Assembly: GCA_946617625.1 (NCBI GenBank)
Contig: CAMOKF010000010.1
Location: 1-35,686, forward strand
Reading direction: 5' to 3'
From: an uncultured Bacillota bacterium
GTDB lineage: Bacteria; Bacillota_I; Bacilli_A; RF39; UBA660
DNA: 35,686 nucleotides
The translations under genes were made by a program, and so were the position numbers. The notes below the pieces were generated by a model, which had not been told where the DNA came from, searched no databases, and worked only from the letters and a program-made list of their open reading frames with translations. How positions within the stretch are numbered: position 1 is the stretch's first letter; the number at the start of each line of letters is the position of its first letter. Below are positions 151 through 35,588 of the stretch, piece by piece.

Positions 151-180
151 AAAAGACTCAGTGTATATACTGAGTCTTTT
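151..180. terminator. Bidirectional intrinsic terminator
   Basis: A perfect 12-bp stem, AAAAGACTCAGT (151-162) with ACTGAGTCTTTT (169-180), and a 6-base loop. A-runs on one side and T-runs on the other let it work on both strands. It ends the gene at the left edge and the leftward acyltransferase, whose stop codon (180-182) overlaps the stem. Confidence 0.88.
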
Positions 181-755
181 TATGGAACTATTTTCTTTAT
201 TATTGGTATTTTTCTAAGTATATATGTAATTATTATGCATACTGGAATAATTATGAATGGAAAGCCTAATCTAAATATTATTGAATGACTATTTAAATGA
301 AATAATTTTATTGATATATCCATAATGAACCAATGCATTAAATATAGAGAAAACGTATATTTTTTTAATATATTAATTATTTTATCAGTAAATTTGTTTT
401 TTATTAGATAAAGTTTATTTTTTATAAAAGTGAATATAGCTACTGAGTAAAGTATACATGGAATATTACAATATCCTTTGTATGTTGTTACTATAGTGTT
501 TGCTTTAAATGATAGATATTGTGTTCCTATAATATGCATTAATAAACCAACAATACCTAGAATATAAATAATTATTTCTTCTTTTTTACTAATATTATGC
601 TTGTTTAGTAGATATCCTAATAATACATATATTATATATTGTGTTACTATTGTGAATGAAAGTGGTGTTGTTAGTCCTATATTAAAAATATTATTTATAA
701 ATGGAATTATGCAATTTAGTATTAAAAACGTTGATATTATATATATATATATATA
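180..755 (-). pseudogene. Acyltransferase-3 family protein, C-terminal part, out of frame
   Basis: Read leftward, this frame is open from the (TA)n tract (about 755) to TAA at 180. It carries the hydrophobic C-terminal half of an acyltransferase-3 (WecH/OafA-like) integral membrane protein, including the segment SLYLMHWFIMDI, which matches the family's late transmembrane helix with its conserved His. It has no ribosome site of its own. The first in-frame ATG is at 539, deep in the domain. Removing one TA unit from the tract at 738-756, or adding two, joins it to the N-terminal part (737-1219) to give about 345 residues, normal for the family. Such enzymes O-acylate surface polysaccharides or lipids. 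Phase variation, a real decay mutation and an assembly error at the repeat are all possible. Confidence 0.8.
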
Positions 756-1219
756 TCATTTCTATTATTTTTATTTATCATTGATAAAAATGGAATACAC
801 AAATAAATTTGAAATAGAGGGATAAAGAACCAATATATTGATAAATATTTTGTCGATAGAATTCCATTAATTATGTTTATTAAATTTAAATCATTTAAAC
901 TGATACTTTTATTAATAAGTTTATATGCTATAGCGATAAAACTCCAAACTATAAATGGTATTACAGTTTTAGTAATTCTCTTTTTAAAGTATGTTTTTGT
1001 ATCATATCTATCTCTATAATCTAATAATGTAATACCAGTAATCATGAAGAATATTGGTACTGCAAAATAAAAGGCACATTCAATAATATTTGCGGTTATC
1101 CATAGTCTAGCTTTACTAAATGACCAGAATACTCCGTTAGTATGAAGTATAATTACAGCTATGGCAGATATTACTGATAAATAAGATATATATTCAATAT
1201 TATTAACTTTTTTCTTCAT
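737..1219 (-). CDS. Acyltransferase-3 family protein, N-terminal part (frameshifted)
   Basis: The start ATG (1219) follows an AAGGTG ribosome site (1225-1230) and a TGATATAAT extended -10 (1238-1246) on the minus strand. The 160 residues begin like Acyl_transf_3 proteins: a first membrane helix ISAIAVIILHTNGVF containing the conserved His, then FFMITGITLLDYRD, then further helices. The frame runs into the (TA)n tract, is read as DIYIYI and stops at TAA. The rest of the enzyme is in another frame at 180-755. As read here the product lacks about half of its helices and should be inactive. Family membership is clear; substrate is unknown. Confidence 0.85.
   Translation of the reverse strand: MKKKVNNIEYISYLSVISAIAVIILHTNGVFWSFSKARLWITANIIECAFYFAVPIFFMITGITLLDYRDRYDTKTYFKKRITKTVIPFIVWSFIAIAYKLINKSISLNDLNLINIINGILSTKYLSIYWFFIPLFQIYLCIPFLSMINKNNRNDIYIYI
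738..756. repeat. (TA)n dinucleotide tract inside the acyltransferase gene
   Basis: Nineteen bases of strictly alternating T and A lie exactly where the leftward reading frame breaks. Loss of one 2-base unit or gain of two restores a full-length acyltransferase. This is the expected layout of a slipped-strand contingency tract. Confidence 0.9.
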
Positions 1220-5597: not shown

Positions 5598-5673
5598 TGG
5601 TGGACTGTTAGGGATTCGAACCCTAGACCCACTGATTAAGAGTCAGTTGCTCTACCAACTGAGCTAACAGTCC
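5598..5673 (-). tRNA. tRNA-Lys (CUU)
   Basis: On the minus strand the acceptor stem GGACTGT/ACAGTCC closes a full cloverleaf with D arm AGCTCAGTTGGTAGAGC and T-loop GTTCGAATC. The anticodon loop CTCTTAA gives anticodon CUU. Discriminator A and the 3' CCA are encoded. It is transcribed opposite to its four neighbours. Confidence 0.97.
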
Positions 5674-5693
5674 GTTTTTTCAATTGCAAATAT

Positions 5694-5722
5694 ATTTTAT
5701 ATCATTTTTTATTATTTTACAA
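5694..5722 (-). promoter_or_regulatory. Promoter of tRNA-Lys
   Basis: On the minus strand: TTGTAA (5722-5717), 17-base spacer, TAAAAT (5699-5694). The decamer TATATTTGCA follows directly and is repeated exactly after the rightward promoter at 5772-5801. Confidence 0.6.
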
Positions 5723-5771
5723 CCTTTTTTTAATAATGTTTGTATTTTTTTATTATTTTTGAAGAAAAATG

Positions 5772-5801
5772 TTGACTTTATTATAAAAATTATAGTATTC
5801 T
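5772..5801 (+). promoter_or_regulatory. Upstream promoter (P1) of the Ile-Asn-Glu tRNA operon
   Basis: TTGACT (5772-5777), 18-base spacer, TATTCT (5796-5801), followed by TATATTTGCAGTTG, nearly identical to the sequence after the tRNA-Lys promoter on the other strand. Transcription would begin about 75 bases before tRNA-Ile. Confidence 0.5.
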
Positions 5802-5834
5802 ATATTTGCAGTTGTGAAAATTATTAAATTTCTC

Positions 5835-5863
5835 TTGCAATATTACTTAAAATGATGTATCAT
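5835..5863 (+). promoter_or_regulatory. Proximal promoter (P2) of the Ile-Asn-Glu tRNA operon
   Basis: TTGCAA (5835-5840), 17-base spacer, TATCAT (5858-5863), 19 bases before the tRNA-Ile acceptor stem. With P1 it forms a tandem stable-RNA promoter arrangement. Confidence 0.5.
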
Positions 5864-5882
5864 TAAGAAGTATTCGTAATTT

Positions 5883-5959
<77 letters not shown>

Positions 5960-5967
5960 TTTTAAAT

Positions 5968-6044
5968 GCCTCAATAGCTCAGTTGGTTAGAGCACTTGAC
6001 TGTTAATCAAGGGGTCCTAGGTTCAAGTCCTAGTTGGGGCGCCA
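5968..6044 (+). tRNA. tRNA-Asn (GUU)
   Basis: Acceptor GCCTCAA pairs with TTGGGGC (one G-U pair). The anticodon loop CTGTTAA gives GUU. Discriminator G is usual for Asn, and CCA is encoded. It lies 8 bases after tRNA-Ile and 3 before tRNA-Glu, so the three are one transcript. Confidence 0.97.
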
Positions 6045-6047
6045 TAT

Positions 6048-6124
6048 GGCGAGTTGGTGAAGTGGCTTAACACACTGCCCTTTCACGGCAGCATTCACGG
6101 ATTCGAATTCCGTACTCGTCACCA
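6048..6124 (+). tRNA. tRNA-Glu (UUC)
   Basis: Acceptor GGCGAGT/ACTCGTC, anticodon stem CTGCC/GGCAG with loop CTTTCAC giving UUC, T-loop ATTCGAATT, CCA encoded. Last gene of the tRNA operon. Confidence 0.96.
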
Positions 6125-6133
6125 ATATGAAAT

Positions 6134-6154
6134 AAACTCCAATGGAGTTTTTTT
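6134..6154 (+). terminator. Terminator of the Ile-Asn-Glu tRNA operon
   Basis: AAACTCC (6134-6140), loop AAT, GGAGTTT (6144-6150), running into a T-tract to 6154. Confidence 0.8.
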
Positions 6155-6162
6155 ATTTATTA

Positions 6163-6191
6163 TTGACAAATATTATCATTTAAGGTAATAT
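6163..6191 (+). promoter_or_regulatory. Promoter of tRNA-Ser
   Basis: Consensus TTGACA (6163-6168), 17-base spacer, TAATAT (6186-6191), then TGTATTTGCGG, resembling the sequence after the other tRNA promoters. This is the strongest -35 box seen in the window. Confidence 0.75.
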
Positions 6192-6216
6192 TGTATTTGC
6201 GGAAGCACATTGGTAT

Positions 6217-6307
6217 GGAGTAGTACTCAAGAGGCTGAAGAGGCGCCCCTGCTAAGGGTGTAGGTCGGGCAACTGGCGCGAGAGTTCAAATCTCTCCTAC
6301 TCCGCCA
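6217..6307 (+). tRNA. tRNA-Ser (GCU)
   Basis: A 91-base type-II tRNA: acceptor GGAGTAG/CTACTCC, anticodon loop CTGCTAA giving GCU, a long variable arm as expected for Ser, discriminator G and encoded CCA. It has its own promoter and terminator. Confidence 0.96.
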
Positions 6308-7919: not shown

Positions 7920-7940
7920 GTGGTACTAATTACTGATTTA

Positions 7941-7949
7941 TGTTATACT
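7941..7949 (+). promoter_or_regulatory. Extended -10 promoter of the glucan synthase-like gene
   Basis: TGTTATACT ends 21 bases before the ATG at 7971. It lies inside the 5' extension of the open frame, which argues for the start at 7971. Confidence 0.65.
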
Positions 7950-7970
7950 TTCTTTAGGAGAGTAGATAGA

Positions 7971-10900
7971 ATGGCAAATTATTTAAAAAAATTCATTAAT
8001 GATTTTAATGATATTAATACATATTATAGTGCTCTTGTTGACAAAACAAAGAATAAAGAATATGTTGGTATTACTAACGAGTGGCTTATAGATAACTTTT
8101 ATATTGTTGTTGAACATAAAACCAATTTTGTTCAAAATAAAAAAGCTATTAAAAAAAGAATTAAAATGATTAACAATATTTATTATATTATTAGAGATAT
8201 TGTTATTAAAAATAATTATAATGTTAGCTTAAAAATATTAGCTGATGAATTAAAAAAATATCAAAAAGAAAATAATACTTATTTATCATATTTAGAAATA
8301 GAAAGTATTAAAGACGTTTTGGTATTTTTATATATTGATAAATTAAATCAAATATGTTTAGAAGAGTCTAAAAAATTAACTGATAAAGGAAAAATTCTTT
8401 CAATTATAAATGACAGACAAGATAAAGAGGTAGAGTTATCACATTTTATTAAGTCTGATTTTGTATGTGAAAATAATTATAATTATTTGTTTGAATTAAA
8501 TTTTGAATTAAAGTCTTTAGGTAGTAAAAGTAATAAAATATTTAAACAGTTAAATGAATACTTAGAGAGTAAAAATATTAGTTTAAAAGAATTAATTAAT
8601 GATGAATATCAAAGAAAAATAGAAAATGATATTTTAATTTCTAATATATTTGGAGATTTGAAAGAATTTTTTGAAATCTCTAGAGAAGATTTATTTGAAA
8701 AGATAAGTAATACTGAAAAGATACTTATGGATGATGATATATATGATTCTATGACTAATGAGTCTAAAGATTTATATAGAAAAAGATTATTAAAAATAGC
8801 TAGAAAAAAGCATTGCTCAGAATTAGATTTACTTAATAAAATGATAGAAAACTCTGATAGTAAAGAGTATCATATTGGATATCAGTTATTTAAGAAAAAA
8901 AATAGTTCTATTTATGTTGTTTTATATATTTTAGCCATTTTATTATTTACTACTGGTATAAGTTATCTTTTGTCATATTTCTTTATTAAATGGAGAGTTT
9001 TAGGATTCATTATTTTATTTGTACCGGTTAGTCAATTATTTGTACAATTCTTTAATCAATTTCTTATTAATGTAGTACCAACTAATGTATTACCAAAAAT
9101 TGATTATTCTAAAGGTATTCCTGAAGAAGCTTCTACAATGGTAGTAATTCCTACTATAGTTTCTTCTAGAGAAAAAATTAAAGAAATGTTTGATATTCTT
9201 GAAACATTCTATATTATTAATAAGACTAATAATTTGTATTTTACATTATTAGGTGATGTTAAGGCTTCTAATCAAGAAATATGTGATTATGATGCTGATC
9301 TTAGTGAATACGGTAGAGAATATGCTACTAAATTAAATCAAAAATATAAGAAGGATATTTTCTACTTTATTTATAGAAAAAGAATCTGGAATGAAGGAGA
9401 AGGTCAATTCTTAGGATTTGAAAGAAAACGTGGTGCTTTACTTCAATTTAATAAGATTTTATTAAAACAAATGGATAAGGTTAATGAAGAAAAGTATTTT
9501 AATACTAATATGCTTCATGATCATAATTTAAAAATTAAATATGTTATTACACTTGATACTGATACTAGATTTGTTCTTAATACTATCTTGAACTTAGTTG
9601 GTTGTATGTCTCATCCTTTAAATAGACCTGTACTTAATAAAGAAGGTACTAAGGTTATTAGTGGTTATGGTTTAATGCAACCTAGGGTAAGTGTTGATAT
9701 TGAGGCTACTAATAAGAGTTTATATAGTCAGATATTTGCTGGTATAGGTGGATTTGATACTTATTCATCTGTAGTTCCAAATGTTTATCAAGATTGCTTT
9801 GGAGAAGGTAGTTTCGTTGGAAAAGGAATCTATGATTTAGAGGTATTTGATAAAATACTATCTAATACTTTTCCTGATAATTTGATTCTATCTCATGACT
9901 TATTAGAAGGTAATTATTTAAGATGTGGTTATGTTTCTGATATTGAATTAATTGATGATTTTCCTTCTAAATTTTTAATTGATATTACTAGACATCATAG
10001 ATGGGCTAGAGGAGATGTACAAATTGTTAATTGGTTATTTAATAAAGTTCCTAATAGAGCTGGTAGAAAAATTAATAATCCAATTAATTTACTTGGAAAA
10101 TATAAAATATTAGATAATATTGTAAGAATGTTCTTATATCCATCATTATTATTAATCATTGTTTTATCATTATTCTTTGGAGTTGTTTCTCCATTATGGT
10201 GGGCTGGATTTGTAGTATTAGAAATAGCTGTACCTGTAATATTCTACTTAAAGAGTAAGATGCATACTAAGAATAAAGATAATACTACAGTTTATTATAA
10301 AAACTTATTTTTTGGTGGTAAGAGTTTAGTTGCTAGATGTTATATTGTTTTCTGTACTATTCCTTTCTATACAAAGTTATATATGGATGCTTTCTTTAGA
10401 ACTTTATATAGAATGTTTATTAGTCATAAAAATTTACTTAATTGGATTACAGCTGAAGAGGTAGAAAAAACTGTTAGAGGAGATTTAAAAAGTTATTTTA
10501 GAAACTTTATACCTAATTTAATTGCAGTTATTTTACTTGTTATATTTGGATTTATTTTCAATAATTATGTTGCTTACTTATTTGCTTTTTGTTTCTTAAC
10601 TGCTCCTTTTGTATTATATTTTGTAAGTCATGATATTGATTATGATAGAGTTGAGTTAAGTGAGAAGAAAGTAAATGATTTAACTGATACTGCAAGACTT
10701 ACATGGAAGTATTTTGAAGATAATTTAACAGAAGAAAATAATTATTTAATTCCTGATAATTATCAAGAGAATAGAGAACAAAAACTTGATTTAAGAACAT
10801 CTCCTACTGCTATTGGATTCTCACTAACAAGTATTGTAGGAGCATATGAATTAGAGTTCATTGATAAAGATAAGGCAATCTTCTTAATTGATAAAATATT

Positions 10901-13900
10901 AAATAATGTAGATTCTTTAGAAAAATGGTTTGGACATTTATATAACTGGTATGATGTTAAGACTATGTCTGTTATGTCATCAAGATTTATTTCTTCAGTT
11001 GATTCTGGAAACTTTGTTGCAAGTTTAATTGTTGTTCGTGAGTTTTTAGTTCAATTTGATGAGGAAAAACTTATTAAATTATGTGATAAGTTAATTAATG
11101 CTTCTAACTTTAAAAAATTCTATACTAAGAGACATGTATTTAGTATTGGATTTGATGAGAATGAGGGTAAACTATCTATTTATAATTACAATAAGTTTGC
11201 TAGTGAAGCTAGATTATTAAGCTATTTAGCTATATGTTTAGGGGATGTTCCTTCTAAGCATTGGTTCTGTTTAGATAAATCTTTAACAACTTATAAAGGT
11301 AGAAAAGGTTTAATTTCATGGAGTGGTACTTCTTTTGAATATTATATGCCTTTACTATTTATGAAAGAATATCCTAATACATTATTAGATGAATCTTATC
11401 AATTTGCTAGATTCTGTCAAAAAGATTACATTGAGAGTGTTTCTCGTAATCTTCCTTGGGGTATTAGTGAATCAGCTTATAATGAATTAGATAATGCATT
11501 AAACTATAAATATAAAGCTTTTGCTACTCCATATCTAAAAGCAAAAGAGGATAAGGATAATAGAATTGTTCTTGCTCCTTATGCATCTTTAATGGCTTTG
11601 GAATTATTTCCAGAAGATGTTTATGAAAATATGGAAAAGTTTAAGAAGATGGGAATGTATGGTAAGTATGGTTTCTATGAATCATATGATTATGATAATA
11701 AAGGTGTTGTAGAAGCATTCTTTGCTCACCATCAAGGTATGATTTTAGCTGGAATAGTTAATTATTTAAAACCTAATGCTATCAAGAATTATTTCCATCA
11801 GAACGTTTATATTAATACTTTTAATATATTGTTAAAAGAAAAAGTTCAAGTTAAGACTAATATTGATATGAAGATGGCTAAATACAAGAAATATAATTAT
11901 GATAAAGAGTCTATTGAAAATGATATTAGAGCATTTGATTATATTTCTTATTTACCTGAAGTATCTGTATTATCTAATAAAAAGTATTGTTTACTTATGA
12001 ATGATAGAGGAAATAGTTTCTCTAGATATAGAACTTTACAACTTAATAGATATAGAAAAGTAACAGAACAAGACTATGGTGTATTCTTATATATCAAAGA
12101 TAAAGATAGTGATAGAATTTGGAGTAATACTTATGCTCCAATAAATGAGAAACCTGAAAAATATGAAGTAGTTTTTGCTAGTGATAGAATTAAGTATTCT
12201 CGTAATGATGGTACTATTAATACTAAAACTGAGATTACAGTATGTAAAAATCATAATGCTGAAATTAGAAAAATAACATTCAAGAATAATGGAGATTCTA
12301 TTAGACATTTACAATTAACTACTTATACTGAACCAATATTATCTGAAAATATGGATGATGTTAGTCATAGAGTATTCAATAATATGTTTATTTCTACTGA
12401 GTATGATAAAAAGAGTAATTCATTAATAGCTCGTAGAAAGTCTAGAGGAGATACTAATATTAGTAGTTATATGCTTCATAGATTATTGGTATTAAACTCT
12501 AATTATGAATATTCTTATGAAACTGAAAGAAGAAGATTTATTGGTAGAAATAATTCAGCTTCTAATCCTGAAGCATTAAATAAAGATTTATCTAATTATT
12601 GTGGAGATAATCTTGACCCTGTATTAAGTATGAGAAATGGAATTGATTTAGCTCCTGGAGAAAGTAAAACTGTTTACATAATTATGGGATTTGGTAGAAG
12701 TAAGGAACAAATAATGGATATTATAAGTTCTTACAATTCTGTTTCAAGTATAGAAAATGCATTTAAAGTTGCTACTTTGATGAATATTATTAATACTAAA
12801 GATATGAATTTATCTGGTGGAAACATGCGTATTTATAATATGATGTTGAATTATTTATATCAAACTACTAGAATTAGTGCAGATGGAGATAGAATGGATT
12901 TACTAAGAAAGAATGCATTAGGTCAATCTGGATTATGGAAGTTTGGTATAAGTGGAGATAGACCAATAATATTAGTTGAGATTAGTGATATAAGCGATAT
13001 GAGTTTTATTAATGAAATTCTAAAAGCTTTTGAATATTATAAGAATCATTCAATATTTGTAGATATAGTAATTATTAATAGAGAGAATAGTCAATTTGCT
13101 AATATTATTAAAAAAGAAATAGATGAAGAGATGTATAGAATGTATACTCTTAATAGTTTCTATCATACTCCAGGTAGTATTACTGTAATAGATGGTTCTT
13201 TAATAGATGAAAAAGAATATTTATTACTACAAATTGTTCCTAGACTTAAGTTTATTATTAATAATCATCAAACATTAAAAGAGGCAGTAGAAGAATTACA
13301 AAGTAATAACTATATTAGTGATTATTCTAGAACTAAGTATGAAGTTAATTTAAAATTACCTAACAAAGAAAAATTAGATTTTGATAATGGTTATGGTGGA
13401 TTTAAATCTAATGGAGAAGAGTATGTTATTTACAATAAAGATACTCCAACTCCATGGAGTAATATAATTGCTAATAAAAATTTTGGTACTATAGTAACTA
13501 ATAATGGTTGTGGATTTACATATGCATATAATTCTGGGGAATTTAAGATTACATCTTGGACTAATGATATGGTATGTAATGATAAATCCGAAGGATTTAA
13601 ATTTAATGGTAGAGTATTTGATCCAATGAAATGTGTACATGGATTTGGATATTCAGTTTTATCTAGTGAAACTGAAGAGAAGTTAACTGAGATTACTGAG
13701 TTTGTTGCTCATGAGGATAATGTTAAGATTTATTTAATGAAATTAGTTAATAAAGATGATAAAAAGATTGACTATGATATAGATTTCTGGATTAATCCTA
13801 CTTTTGGTAATTTTGAAGAAAAAACATCTCGTCATATATTAACTGAATTTATGGGTGATGATAATTATCTTAAGATGAGAAATGTTTATAGTATTAACTT

Positions 13901-15623
13901 TGGAGATGTTAATGTATTTATGACTTCTTCATTACCAATAGAATCTGCTGAGTTAAATAAAATGCTTGTTAAGTCTATTCGTACTCCTTTAAGCTTAGAA
14001 GCACATGAAGAAAAATATGTTGTGTTTGCTTTAGGATGTGGAATGAGTGATAAAGAAAATTTAGCTTTAATTAATAAATATTGTGATGTTGCTACAGCTA
14101 AAAAAGAATTAAAAATAGTTAAAGAAAAATGGCAAAAAACTTTAAATACAATTAAAGTTAAATCACCTGATCTTAGCTTTGATTATATGATAAATGGTTG
14201 GTATTTATATCAGACTTTATCTTCAAGAATTTTTGCTAAAAGTGGTTTTTATCAAGTAAGTGGTGCCTTTGGATTTAGAGATCAGTTGCAAGATTCTATG
14301 AATGTTGCTGTTATTAAACCTGATATTGCTAGACGTCAAATTATTATTAATGCTGCTCATCAATTCCCTGAAGGAGATGTATTCCACTGGTGGCATGAAA
14401 AGAATAGATTTGGTCTTCGTAGTAAATATAAAGATGATTATTTATGGTTAGTTTATGCTACTCTTCATTATATTGATATTACTAAAGATGTTGATATATT
14501 AAAAACAGAAGTTCCTTATGTTACTGGTGATGAATTAGGTGAGTATGAGAGTGAAAAAGGTATGATGTTTAACTATACTGATTACAAAGAAACTTTACTT
14601 GATCACTGTATAAAATCATTACAATTATCTATGAATTCTTTAGGTCATCATAAGATTCCACTTATGGGTGGTGGTGATTGGAATGATGGAATGAACAAAG
14701 TTGGTATTAAAGGAAAAGGAGAATCAGTATGGTTAGGTTTCTTCTTATACTTAATTATTGATCAGTTTGTTAAATTAATGAGACTTCATTATAAGAGTTT
14801 TGATGTTTCTCCTTATGTAGAATTTAATGAAAAATTAAAGAATAATTTAAATAAAAAGACATGGGATGGAAATCATTATTTACGTGCTTTCTTCGATAAT
14901 GGAGATAAGTTAGGAAGTAGTGAAAACTCTGAATGTAAGATTGATTTAATTTCTCAAAGTTTTGCTATTTTAAGTGGCGTTGCTCCAAAAGATAGGATTC
15001 AAAGTGTTATTTCTTCTGTTGAAGAAAATTTAGTAGATGATAATGCTAAAATTATCAAGCTATTAACTCCTGCATTCCATAGTTCTTTAAATAATCCTGG
15101 ATATATTATGAATTATCCTAGAGGAATTAGAGAAAATGGTGGACAATATACACATTCTGTTGCTTGGTATTTGATGGCTTTGATAAAGAGTGGTTATTCC
15201 GATAGGGCATATAGATATTATCAAATGATTAATCCTGTTAATAGAGCTTTAGATAAAGATAGTTCATATCATTATAAAACTGAACCTTACGTAATTGCTG
15301 CTGATATTTATTCTGCTAAAGGACGTGAAGGTAGAGGTGGATGGACATGGTATACTGGTTCAGCTGGATGGTTCTATCGTGTAGGAACTGAAGAAATATT
15401 AGGTTTACATAAACATGGTGAATCATTAAAAATTACTCCTAATCTACCAATTCATTGGGAAAAACTAGAAATTACTTATCGTTATATGGATACTGAGTAC
15501 CATATAAAGGTTATTAAAGATAAGAAAGATGAATTAATCTTAGATAACCATTCACAAGTAAGTAATAGTATAGATTTAGTAAATGATGGTATATTGCATG
15601 AAGTAGTTGTTTATACAAGATAA
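7971..15623 (+). CDS. GT84-GH94 cyclic beta-1,2-glucan synthase-type protein
   Basis: A 2550-residue multidomain membrane protein with the NdvB/ChvB/Cgs order. Residues 1-310 form a helical N-terminal region, and the first membrane helices are at about 311-370. A GT84 glycosyltransferase follows (about 389-690), with LDTDTRF (about 523) and RHHRWARGD (about 675). More helices lie at about 715-890. A glycoamylase-like domain (about 940-1290) contains FFAHHQGMIL. A double GH94 region follows with FGFRDQLQDSMN (about 2093) and GGGDWNDGMN, where Asp 2239 is the expected GH94 catalytic acid. In known family members GT84 polymerises UDP-glucose into beta-1,2-glucan while GH94 phosphorolysis sets chain length. 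Whether this product is cyclic or linear cannot be told. The frame is open from a GTG at 7920, but AGGAG (7957-7961) and the promoter select the ATG at 7971. It is flanked by glucose-6-phosphate isomerase. Confidence 0.88.
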   Translation: MANYLKKFINDFNDINTYYSALVDKTKNKEYVGITNEWLIDNFYIVVEHKTNFVQNKKAIKKRIKMINNIYYIIRDIVIKNNYNVSLKILADELKKYQKENNTYLSYLEIESIKDVLVFLYIDKLNQICLEESKKLTDKGKILSIINDRQDKEVELSHFIKSDFVCENNYNYLFELNFELKSLGSKSNKIFKQLNEYLESKNISLKELINDEYQRKIENDILISNIFGDLKEFFEISREDLFEKISNTEKILMDDDIYDSMTNESKDLYRKRLLKIARKKHCSELDLLNKMIENSDSKEYHIGYQLFKKKNSSIYVVLYILAILLFTTGISYLLSYFFIKWRVLGFIILFVPVSQLFVQFFNQFLINVVPTNVLPKIDYSKGIPEEASTMVVIPTIVSSREKIKEMFDILETFYIINKTNNLYFTLLGDVKASNQEICDYDADLSEYGREYATKLNQKYKKDIFYFIYRKRIWNEGEGQFLGFERKRGALLQFNKILLKQMDKVNEEKYFNTNMLHDHNLKIKYVITLDTDTRFVLNTILNLVGCMSHPLNRPVLNKEGTKVISGYGLMQPRVSVDIEATNKSLYSQIFAGIGGFDTYSSVVPNVYQDCFGEGSFVGKGIYDLEVFDKILSNTFPDNLILSHDLLEGNYLRCGYVSDIELIDDFPSKFLIDITRHHRWARGDVQIVNWLFNKVPNRAGRKINNPINLLGKYKILDNIVRMFLYPSLLLIIVLSLFFGVVSPLWWAGFVVLEIAVPVIFYLKSKMHTKNKDNTTVYYKNLFFGGKSLVARCYIVFCTIPFYTKLYMDAFFRTLYRMFISHKNLLNWITAEEVEKTVRGDLKSYFRNFIPNLIAVILLVIFGFIFNNYVAYLFAFCFLTAPFVLYFVSHDIDYDRVELSEKKVNDLTDTARLTWKYFEDNLTEENNYLIPDNYQENREQKLDLRTSPTAIGFSLTSIVGAYELEFIDKDKAIFLIDKILNNVDSLEKWFGHLYNWYDVKTMSVMSSRFISSVDSGNFVASLIVVREFLVQFDEEKLIKLCDKLINASNFKKFYTKRHVFSIGFDENEGKLSIYNYNKFASEARLLSYLAICLGDVPSKHWFCLDKSLTTYKGRKGLISWSGTSFEYYMPLLFMKEYPNTLLDESYQFARFCQKDYIESVSRNLPWGISESAYNELDNALNYKYKAFATPYLKAKEDKDNRIVLAPYASLMALELFPEDVYENMEKFKKMGMYGKYGFYESYDYDNKGVVEAFFAHHQGMILAGIVNYLKPNAIKNYFHQNVYINTFNILLKEKVQVKTNIDMKMAKYKKYNYDKESIENDIRAFDYISYLPEVSVLSNKKYCLLMNDRGNSFSRYRTLQLNRYRKVTEQDYGVFLYIKDKDSDRIWSNTYAPINEKPEKYEVVFASDRIKYSRNDGTINTKTEITVCKNHNAEIRKITFKNNGDSIRHLQLTTYTEPILSENMDDVSHRVFNNMFISTEYDKKSNSLIARRKSRGDTNISSYMLHRLLVLNSNYEYSYETERRRFIGRNNSASNPEALNKDLSNYCGDNLDPVLSMRNGIDLAPGESKTVYIIMGFGRSKEQIMDIISSYNSVSSIENAFKVATLMNIINTKDMNLSGGNMRIYNMMLNYLYQTTRISADGDRMDLLRKNALGQSGLWKFGISGDRPIILVEISDISDMSFINEILKAFEYYKNHSIFVDIVIINRENSQFANIIKKEIDEEMYRMYTLNSFYHTPGSITVIDGSLIDEKEYLLLQIVPRLKFIINNHQTLKEAVEELQSNNYISDYSRTKYEVNLKLPNKEKLDFDNGYGGFKSNGEEYVIYNKDTPTPWSNIIANKNFGTIVTNNGCGFTYAYNSGEFKITSWTNDMVCNDKSEGFKFNGRVFDPMKCVHGFGYSVLSSETEEKLTEITEFVAHEDNVKIYLMKLVNKDDKKIDYDIDFWINPTFGNFEEKTSRHILTEFMGDDNYLKMRNVYSINFGDVNVFMTSSLPIESAELNKMLVKSIRTPLSLEAHEEKYVVFALGCGMSDKENLALINKYCDVATAKKELKIVKEKWQKTLNTIKVKSPDLSFDYMINGWYLYQTLSSRIFAKSGFYQVSGAFGFRDQLQDSMNVAVIKPDIARRQIIINAAHQFPEGDVFHWWHEKNRFGLRSKYKDDYLWLVYATLHYIDITKDVDILKTEVPYVTGDELGEYESEKGMMFNYTDYKETLLDHCIKSLQLSMNSLGHHKIPLMGGGDWNDGMNKVGIKGKGESVWLGFFLYLIIDQFVKLMRLHYKSFDVSPYVEFNEKLKNNLNKKTWDGNHYLRAFFDNGDKLGSSENSECKIDLISQSFAILSGVAPKDRIQSVISSVEENLVDDNAKIIKLLTPAFHSSLNNPGYIMNYPRGIRENGGQYTHSVAWYLMALIKSGYSDRAYRYYQMINPVNRALDKDSSYHYKTEPYVIAADIYSAKGREGRGGWTWYTGSAGWFYRVGTEEILGLHKHGESLKITPNLPIHWEKLEITYRYMDTEYHIKVIKDKKDELILDNHSQVSNSIDLVNDGILHEVVVYTR

Positions 15624-33557: not shown

Positions 33558-35588
33558 ATGAGAAGGTTAAGAATAAATAATAAAAAAATGTTATTGATAC
33601 TTATTTTATTCATTAGTATTGGATTCGCTTATTTATCAGCTGCTTTGAATATTAATGGATTAGCTATTTTTAATCCTGTTAGCTGGGATGTTTATTTTGA
33701 TAATGTTACTTATAAATCTGTAGAAGCTACTGTTAACGAGGAGCCTGAAATAGTAGATAAGACAACTATTAATTTTAGTGTTTTGCTTGAAACTACAGGA
33801 TCTTCATTAATATTAGAAAGTGATATTGTTAATAATGGTACTATAGATGCTATGGTTGATTCTGTTCAAGTATCTGGCTTTGAAGATGTTTCTAGTTTTA
33901 TTGAATATGAGATTACTTATAAAGATGGTGTTCCTATCGAACAGTTTAATCTTCTTAAATCTAATTCAACAGAAAGAATTAAATTAAAAGTAACTTTTAA
34001 GGAAGATATTACAGAAGAAGATTTACCAACTGCTGATGGAACTATTAATGCTTCTATAATTATTAATTACCAAAATGCTACTGATGAAGCTAAAGAAAGA
34101 GAGCACAATAATGGTTTGTTTGTTTCAGGGCCAGACTTTAGAAGCAAAATGTCAAAAATTTATGGTGGTTCTGGGGATGTTGTATACGATATTCGTCAAG
34201 TTAATGTTATTGTAGAAAATGAGTTACCTGATAATATAACAATGACTAATGATAATTTGATTACAATGATTGATGAAGAGAATGGTTATAATAGTCATGC
34301 ATATGTATGGGGTGAAGTACTTAATGAAGAAGATGGCAATCGCTTTTCTGACTGTACTGAATATGATCCAGATACCGATGAGTGTATTAATGAAGTTGAA
34401 TATGTTAGATTTTATAATGTAGATTTACATATGTATTTGGAACCTGGAAAATATTATTTGAATGAGAACTCATCTAAATTTTTTATGGATTTTGTTTTTG
34501 ATGATACTTTAACAGATTTAATTACTGAGTTTGATTCTTCATTGGTTGTGGATGCATCTTATATGTTTTATCATTCTAAAATTGATAAACTAGATTTATC
34601 AAATTGGAATACTTCTAATGTTACAAATATGAGTCATATGTTTGAAGGATATTATCGTGGAAGTGATTTTGGTATTTTATATAGTATAGAAAATATTGAT
34701 GTAAGTAATTTTGATACTAGTAAAGTGACTGATATGAGTTATATGTTTGCTTATTGTGATAAAATTACAGGTTTAGATTTAAGTAAATTTGAAACTGATA
34801 ATGTTACAGATTTTTCTGGAATGTTTTTAGATAATTATTTATTGTTGAATATTCATATGAATCCTAATAAATTTAAAACTGGCAGTGCTTTAAATCTTTC
34901 TTCTATGTTTGAAAATTGTGGTTCATTACAATCCTTAGATGTTTCAAAATTTGATACTTCTAAATGTAAATACTTTGATCTTATGTTTAAATCTTGTTCT
35001 AGTTTATCTACATTAGATGTATCTAATTGGGATACTAGTGAAGCAGTAAGTTTTGCTTACATGTTTAGTTATCTCTCTCATGTTTCTACTTTAGCTGTTG
35101 ATAATTGGAATACTAGTAATGTTACTTCGATTTCTGGAACATTTAGTCGTTGTGAATCAATTACTAGTTTAGATTTAAGTGAGTGGAATACCTCAAAAAT
35201 TACTGGCTTGTTTGAAACGTTTAGTGATTGCTACGCTTTAAGAAATTTAAACTTATCTAATTGGGATACTTCTAATGCTACTACATTTCAATCTGCTTTT
35301 AGGAGGTGTAGAAGTTTAACCACTCTTGATTTGAGTAGTTTTGATACATCTAAAGTTACACAAGCTTATTTTTGCTTTTCTGGATGTACTAGTCTTACTA
35401 CTATTTTTGTATCTAATCTTTGGGATTTTACTCATGTGAGTTCATTGTATGGATTTTCTGTATTTAGTGATTGTACAAGTTTAGTAGGAGGAAACGGTAC
35501 GGCTTATAATTCTAGTTATACTGAATCAAATTATGCTAGAATAGATGGTAAAAATGGTCTTCCAGGTTATTTAACTTTAAAATCTTAA
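33558..35588 (+). CDS. Surface protein with BspA-type/DUF285 repeats
   Basis: 676 residues. An N-terminal signal or anchor helix (MLLILILFISIGFAYLSAAL, about 11-30) is followed by NINGLAIF and a beta-rich domain (to about 180) starting VSWDVYFDNV. A middle region (about 190-330) has a C-x-C-type pair near DCTEYDPDTDEC. Then about eleven repeats of 23-25 residues run to the C-terminus, consensus LDLSNWDTSNVTxMxxMFxxC, as in DUF285/BspA-like leucine-rich surface proteins. The end is LPGYLTLKS. There is no LPXTG motif or lipobox, so anchoring must be by the N-terminal helix or by secretion. Such proteins usually mediate attachment; this role is inferred. Confidence 0.88.
   Translation: MRRLRINNKKMLLILILFISIGFAYLSAALNINGLAIFNPVSWDVYFDNVTYKSVEATVNEEPEIVDKTTINFSVLLETTGSSLILESDIVNNGTIDAMVDSVQVSGFEDVSSFIEYEITYKDGVPIEQFNLLKSNSTERIKLKVTFKEDITEEDLPTADGTINASIIINYQNATDEAKEREHNNGLFVSGPDFRSKMSKIYGGSGDVVYDIRQVNVIVENELPDNITMTNDNLITMIDEENGYNSHAYVWGEVLNEEDGNRFSDCTEYDPDTDECINEVEYVRFYNVDLHMYLEPGKYYLNENSSKFFMDFVFDDTLTDLITEFDSSLVVDASYMFYHSKIDKLDLSNWNTSNVTNMSHMFEGYYRGSDFGILYSIENIDVSNFDTSKVTDMSYMFAYCDKITGLDLSKFETDNVTDFSGMFLDNYLLLNIHMNPNKFKTGSALNLSSMFENCGSLQSLDVSKFDTSKCKYFDLMFKSCSSLSTLDVSNWDTSEAVSFAYMFSYLSHVSTLAVDNWNTSNVTSISGTFSRCESITSLDLSEWNTSKITGLFETFSDCYALRNLNLSNWDTSNATTFQSAFRRCRSLTTLDLSSFDTSKVTQAYFCFSGCTSLTTIFVSNLWDFTHVSSLYGFSVFSDCTSLVGGNGTAYNSSYTESNYARIDGKNGLPGYLTLKS
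34578..35490 (+). repeat. About eleven DUF285/BspA-type repeats within the surface protein
   Basis: Degenerate units of about 70-75 bases encode LDLSxWxTSxVTxxxxMFxxC. The DNA copies have diverged (no long identical stretches), so the array is old rather than freshly expanded. Confidence 0.85.

Follow-up and report, generated by a model that had tools for sequence, protein, structure and literature searches.

A gene encoding an acyltransferase-3 (AT3) protein, located at the start of contig 10 in a draft assembly of an uncultured Bacillota bacterium (1.19 Mb, 83% complete, ~25% GC), is interrupted within a repeat of alternating T and A, raising the question of whether it is a dead gene, a gene misread by the assembler, or one state of a genetic switch. 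A preliminary description of the locus had proposed the last of these, namely a phase-variable gene in its off state. We analyzed the first 35,686 nt of the contig (hereafter the window), the rest of the assembly, and a sample of genomes from the same family, in which each species is represented by one genome and the order by this family only. The order, presumably RF39-like Bacilli, belongs to a class in which some genomes are very small and consist of a single contig.

The broken frame and its surroundings

Read directly, positions 738–756 (TATATATATATATATATAT) alternate between T and A over 19 nt, i.e., (TA)9.5. Translation of the minus strand yields a frame of 160 aa, ending in ...NRNDIYIYI*, whose stop codon lies within this tract, and a second frame (YIYIYIISTFLILNC...KKIVP*) that remains open for 191 codons, up to a stop at 180 (Table 1). 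In a Pfam profile search, both halves scored above the curated cut-off of PF01757 (Acyl_transf_3; 31 bits), with the N-terminal part matching profile positions 2–153 (E = 1.4e-20, 74 bits) and the C-terminal part positions 153–323 of 326 (E = 1.4e-11, 44.5 bits), such that the two parts are exactly consecutive in the AT3 domain. The C-terminal frame is no chance opening, since the other two minus-strand frames of this region contain 34 and 14 stops while the coding frame has none before its end, and the probability of 185 codons being open by chance is ~1e-8. These results confirm that the break falls exactly at the 19-nt repeat and that the downstream frame, announced in the preliminary description as ~190 codons long, carries the rest of the family domain.

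The repeat unit is not a multiple of three and is located inside the reading frame. Tracts of 11, 17, 23, or 29 nt join the two frames into a protein of 343–349 aa, while tracts of 19 or 21 nt leave them unjoined, in agreement with the earlier calculation that losing one TA unit or gaining two (17 or 23 nt) gives ~345 residues. The longest TA run elsewhere in the window measures 8 nt, the 1.19-Mb assembly contains no second TA run of 14 nt or more, and Markov models predict ~0.01 TA runs of 19 nt per genome. The same genome also has a G8 run (C1:71807), located where a 133-codon frame ends.

Both the ribosome-binding site and the promoter had been described as intact. The former holds, with AAGGTG at a suitable spacing from the start codon; the latter does not, as no convincing −35 box was found near the TATAAT at 1238–1243 and a promoter scan performed no better than shuffled sequences. 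The neighbors of the AT3 gene in the window encode an alpha/beta hydrolase, a Mur ligase, and a D-Ala ligase, with no capsule cluster. Farther along, positions 7920–15623 encode a 2567-aa protein with GH94 catalytic, supersandwich, and glucoamylase-like domains that resembles cyclic beta-glucan synthases, and it is conceivable that this protein is a source of an acyl acceptor. The window also contains five tRNA genes clustered in an intercoding gap (5601–6304) and, at 33558–35588, a gene for a 676-aa protein with four stretches of DUF285, a family named from Mycoplasma proteins.

Table 1. Features of the window locus and tract-bearing AT3 genes of the family
Feature	Position or locus	Strand	Tract	Remarks
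Inverted repeat AAAAGACTCAGT...ACTGAGTCTTTT	150–182	none		probable terminator, at the gene's stop; read directly
C-terminal part of AT3 gene, other frame	180–755	−		191 codons plus stop; PF01757
N-terminal part of AT3 gene	737–1219	−		160 codons, ATG at 1219; PF01757
(TA)9.5 tract	738–756	none	TA	at the frame break; proposed slippage switch
Ribosome-binding site AAGGTG	1225–1230	−		5 nt upstream of the start codon; read directly
Possible −10 box TATAAT	1238–1243	−		read directly; promoter uncertain
AT3 gene	G000 (window)		TA, 19 nt	broken at tract
AT3 gene	G258:C1		TA	broken at tract; PF01757 2–201 before, 205–321 after
AT3 gene	G258:C6		TA	broken at tract; profile 3–295, then the next frame, open for ~45 codons
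AT3 gene	G294:C6		TA	open through tract, 358 aa
AT3 gene	G220:C1		TA	open through tract
AT3 gene	G249:C35		TA	broken at an A-run ~20 nt upstream of tract
AT3 gene	G027:C45		G8	broken exactly at tract, 240 + 138 codons
AT3 gene	G370:C30		G9	out of frame just after start
AT3 gene	G178:C2		G8–G10	open
AT3 gene	G175:C42		G8–G10	open
Another AT3 gene	G175		G10	in promoter region

Repeat tracts in AT3 genes of the family

Of the 386 family genomes, 41 contain TA runs of 18 nt or longer. Among the tract sites listed, ~75 were read in context, ~16 of which are intragenic, and six of these ~16 (all at least 18 nt) lie in AT3 genes, with two of the six coming from a single genome (G258). In three of the six genes, including that of the window, the frame breaks exactly at the tract; two others read through it in frame, and in the remaining one the break lies a short distance upstream. 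This last gene (G249:C35) was considered as a break at the TA tract and rejected, since its stop codon comes before the tract and the frame shifts at the A-run. In one more AT3 gene (G401:C39), the frame stays open across a TA tract of 14 nt. Given that AT3 genes represent ~0.2% of all genes, finding six among ~16 intragenic tracts has a probability of ~4e-13, which is still ~3e-10 when the AT3 share is tripled to account for composition. The density of short TA runs (8 nt or more) in AT3 genes is only 2.1 times that of the flanking sequence.

Further AT3 loci contain independent runs of eight to ten G, in genomes of ~75% A+T (Table 1). In total, 79 AT3 loci were read in the 41 genomes, a set picked for its TA tracts, which inflates the per-gene TA rate while leaving the intragenic share and the G tracts uninflated; about 12 AT3 loci, those of the window and G258:C1 included, bear a switch-like tract. 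By comparison, 0 of 30 loci of a control membrane family, MatE, had such a tract in the same genomes (Fisher P = 0.016). A search for the L060 gene in another species of the G258 genus gave no match.

TA tracts in promoters and variation in tract length

Most of the ~75 TA tracts read are located within ~130 nt upstream of an ORF. A frequent arrangement is TTGAC(A)-(TA)n-TATAAT, in which the TA tract forms the promoter spacer in front of genes for lipoproteins and other secreted proteins, and such spacers are probably promoter-spacing phase switches. They occur in several genera, at L055 (1501–1521 and 2184–2200), L051, L075, L084, L067, L063, and L066. They resemble the (TA)9–11 promoter tract of hifA/hifB in Haemophilus influenzae, a slippage switch (PMC2651432) that, in contrast to the tract of the window gene, alters promoter spacing and not a reading frame.

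Paralogous promoter tracts differ in length, measuring 19/21/21/21/25, 17/21/21, and 17/23 nt in three sets. Likewise, a phage-tail-like site present in two genera has a tract of 20 nt in one (L050, 1500–1519; G194) and of 18 nt in the other (L072, 36–53; G349), i.e., one TA unit apart, within flanks that are 98–100% identical over 60 nt per side. Since near-identical flanks and paralogues thus enclose tracts of different lengths, the length of TA tracts in this size range is mutable in this lineage. The phage-tail-like TA site was also sought in viral contigs, where none was found.

Other tracts lie in coding sequence. L052, L076, and L077 of G280 are paralogues with a common 5′ coding end whose TA tracts (23, 19, and 19 nt) fall in different frames and are possible translational switches. 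At L056 (1500–1521), a 158-codon frame, presumably resembling a DUF1016-type protein, ends within a 22-nt TA tract. In genus g46, the 18-nt TA pattern matches 36 and 44 times, with overlaps, in two genomes (G316 and G433) and zero times in most other members, indicating that TA tracts have multiplied in a burst in certain species.

A switch or a fixed break

The closest homologue of the window gene (L021) has an intact 357-codon frame with 47% identity, in a genome of 48% GC, and contains no repeat. The N-terminal part aligns to it with 46% identity and the C-terminal part with 38%, with an overlap of two residues at the tract; with one TA unit fewer, the join is gap-free and has the same joined length, which fits a single-unit change. 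A comparison of solved structures with this homologue returned nothing relevant, and no finer function can be assigned because the only NCBIfam matches, VanT-like and NolL-like, fall far below cut-off. No orthologue was found by protein or DNA in the five remaining genomes of the genus, the best protein match there being weak and partial (30%), and no AT3 gene was found in viral contigs.

The strongest alternative to a switch, although an unlikely one, is that a TA unit was gained once and that the gene is now dead in this lineage, with its decay still to come. The single copy seen is indeed out of frame, and the gene may be dispensable because the genus holds no orthologue of it; however, the 191 codons 3′ of the tract contain no further stop or frameshift, such that certain TA unit numbers give a full AT3 frame that no other mutation inactivates. 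Damage of this kind, alongside a fixed repeat number in all reads and strains, had been named in the preliminary description as evidence against phase variation. The lower similarity of the C-terminal part to the homologue would agree with a dead gene, but may as well reflect normal AT3 conservation. Moreover, a tract so long itself implies repeated slippage, and relatives hold both open and broken tract-bearing AT3 genes.

Less probable still is a consensus error, in which the assembler would have miscalled or collapsed a tract whose prevailing true length keeps the frame. Tracts of dinucleotides are prone to error, the assembly is an incomplete draft, and the tract lies 740 nt from the contig end; yet 19 nt fit well inside one read, and the consensus is not generally frameshifted, since the remaining large genes in the window have unbroken frames. 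In addition, a mixed population would give the same picture, as phase variation predicts. Slippage of the ribosome or RNA polymerase on the tract, yielding the full protein with no change in DNA, is highly improbable, for although the needed shift equals one repeat unit and both frames look selected, it is unnecessary given the in-frame tracts of relatives (G294 and G220), and slippage on an alternating TA tract should be inefficient.

Because relatives carry such repeats in their AT3 genes, either readable or broken, a random on/off switch is probable, and we favor with fair confidence the reading that the window gene is a slipped-strand phase-variable surface acyltransferase caught in the off state. 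The phase variation put forward in the preliminary description is thereby supported at the level of sequence, by the undamaged C-terminal frame, the gap-free join to the homologue, the tract-bearing AT3 genes of the family, and the length differences elsewhere. According to this model, a stand-alone AT3 membrane acyltransferase, predicted to acylate probably a surface glycan, would gain or lose TA units by slipped-strand mispairing at replication. One tract length in three would be in frame, with 17 or 23 nt giving a protein of ~345–347 aa (“on”), while other lengths would end translation in or just after the tract, as with the 19 nt seen here (“off”), whose 160-aa product has no second half of the AT3 domain and should be inactive. 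Such switching may be reversible in this species, and might offer a benefit in evading phages or immunity.

The nearest precedent is wciZ of Streptococcus pneumoniae 15B/15C, a surface-polysaccharide O-acetyltransferase gene with a TA tandem repeat, in which a change in repeat length causes a frameshift and the reversible loss of acetylation (PMC5028725, PMC10327508). The likeness, drawn from descriptions, lies in a TA repeat within an O-acetyltransferase gene; however, wciZ belongs to the capsule locus of a cultured pathogen and has a known phenotype, whereas the window gene is outside any capsule cluster. The AT3 protein OafA of H. influenzae is also subject to repeat-based phase variation, its gene being frameshifted in the first sequenced strain and intact in others (PMC9558356), but it differs in its tetranucleotide repeats and its known acceptor, lipooligosaccharide. 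Within the Bacilli, icaC of Staphylococcus aureus encodes an AT3-only membrane protein that is inactivated by slipped-strand mispairing (PMC4432689, PMC9558356). Unlike the window gene, icaC is part of the ica operon. Its repeat unit is also other than TA.

The window gene thus appears to add to a known kind, exemplified by wciZ and oafA, while the lineage appears to possess a TA- and G-tract phasome not described so far, a search of openly accessible papers having returned no account of such switching there. We lean, somewhat less firmly than for the gene itself, toward a lineage-wide phasome of (TA)n and (G)n tracts, comprising the frames of surface-modifying enzymes, led by AT3, and the promoter spacers in front of lipoprotein and other secreted-protein genes, through which single cells would differ in surface make-up. 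Repeat-driven switching of surface acylation has so far been documented mainly in cultured pathogens. Its apparent recurrence in a lineage still uncultured, where TA and G tracts act as interchangeable triggers within one enzyme family, suggests that bacteria may quite generally hedge their bets against phages or host immunity through surface acylation.
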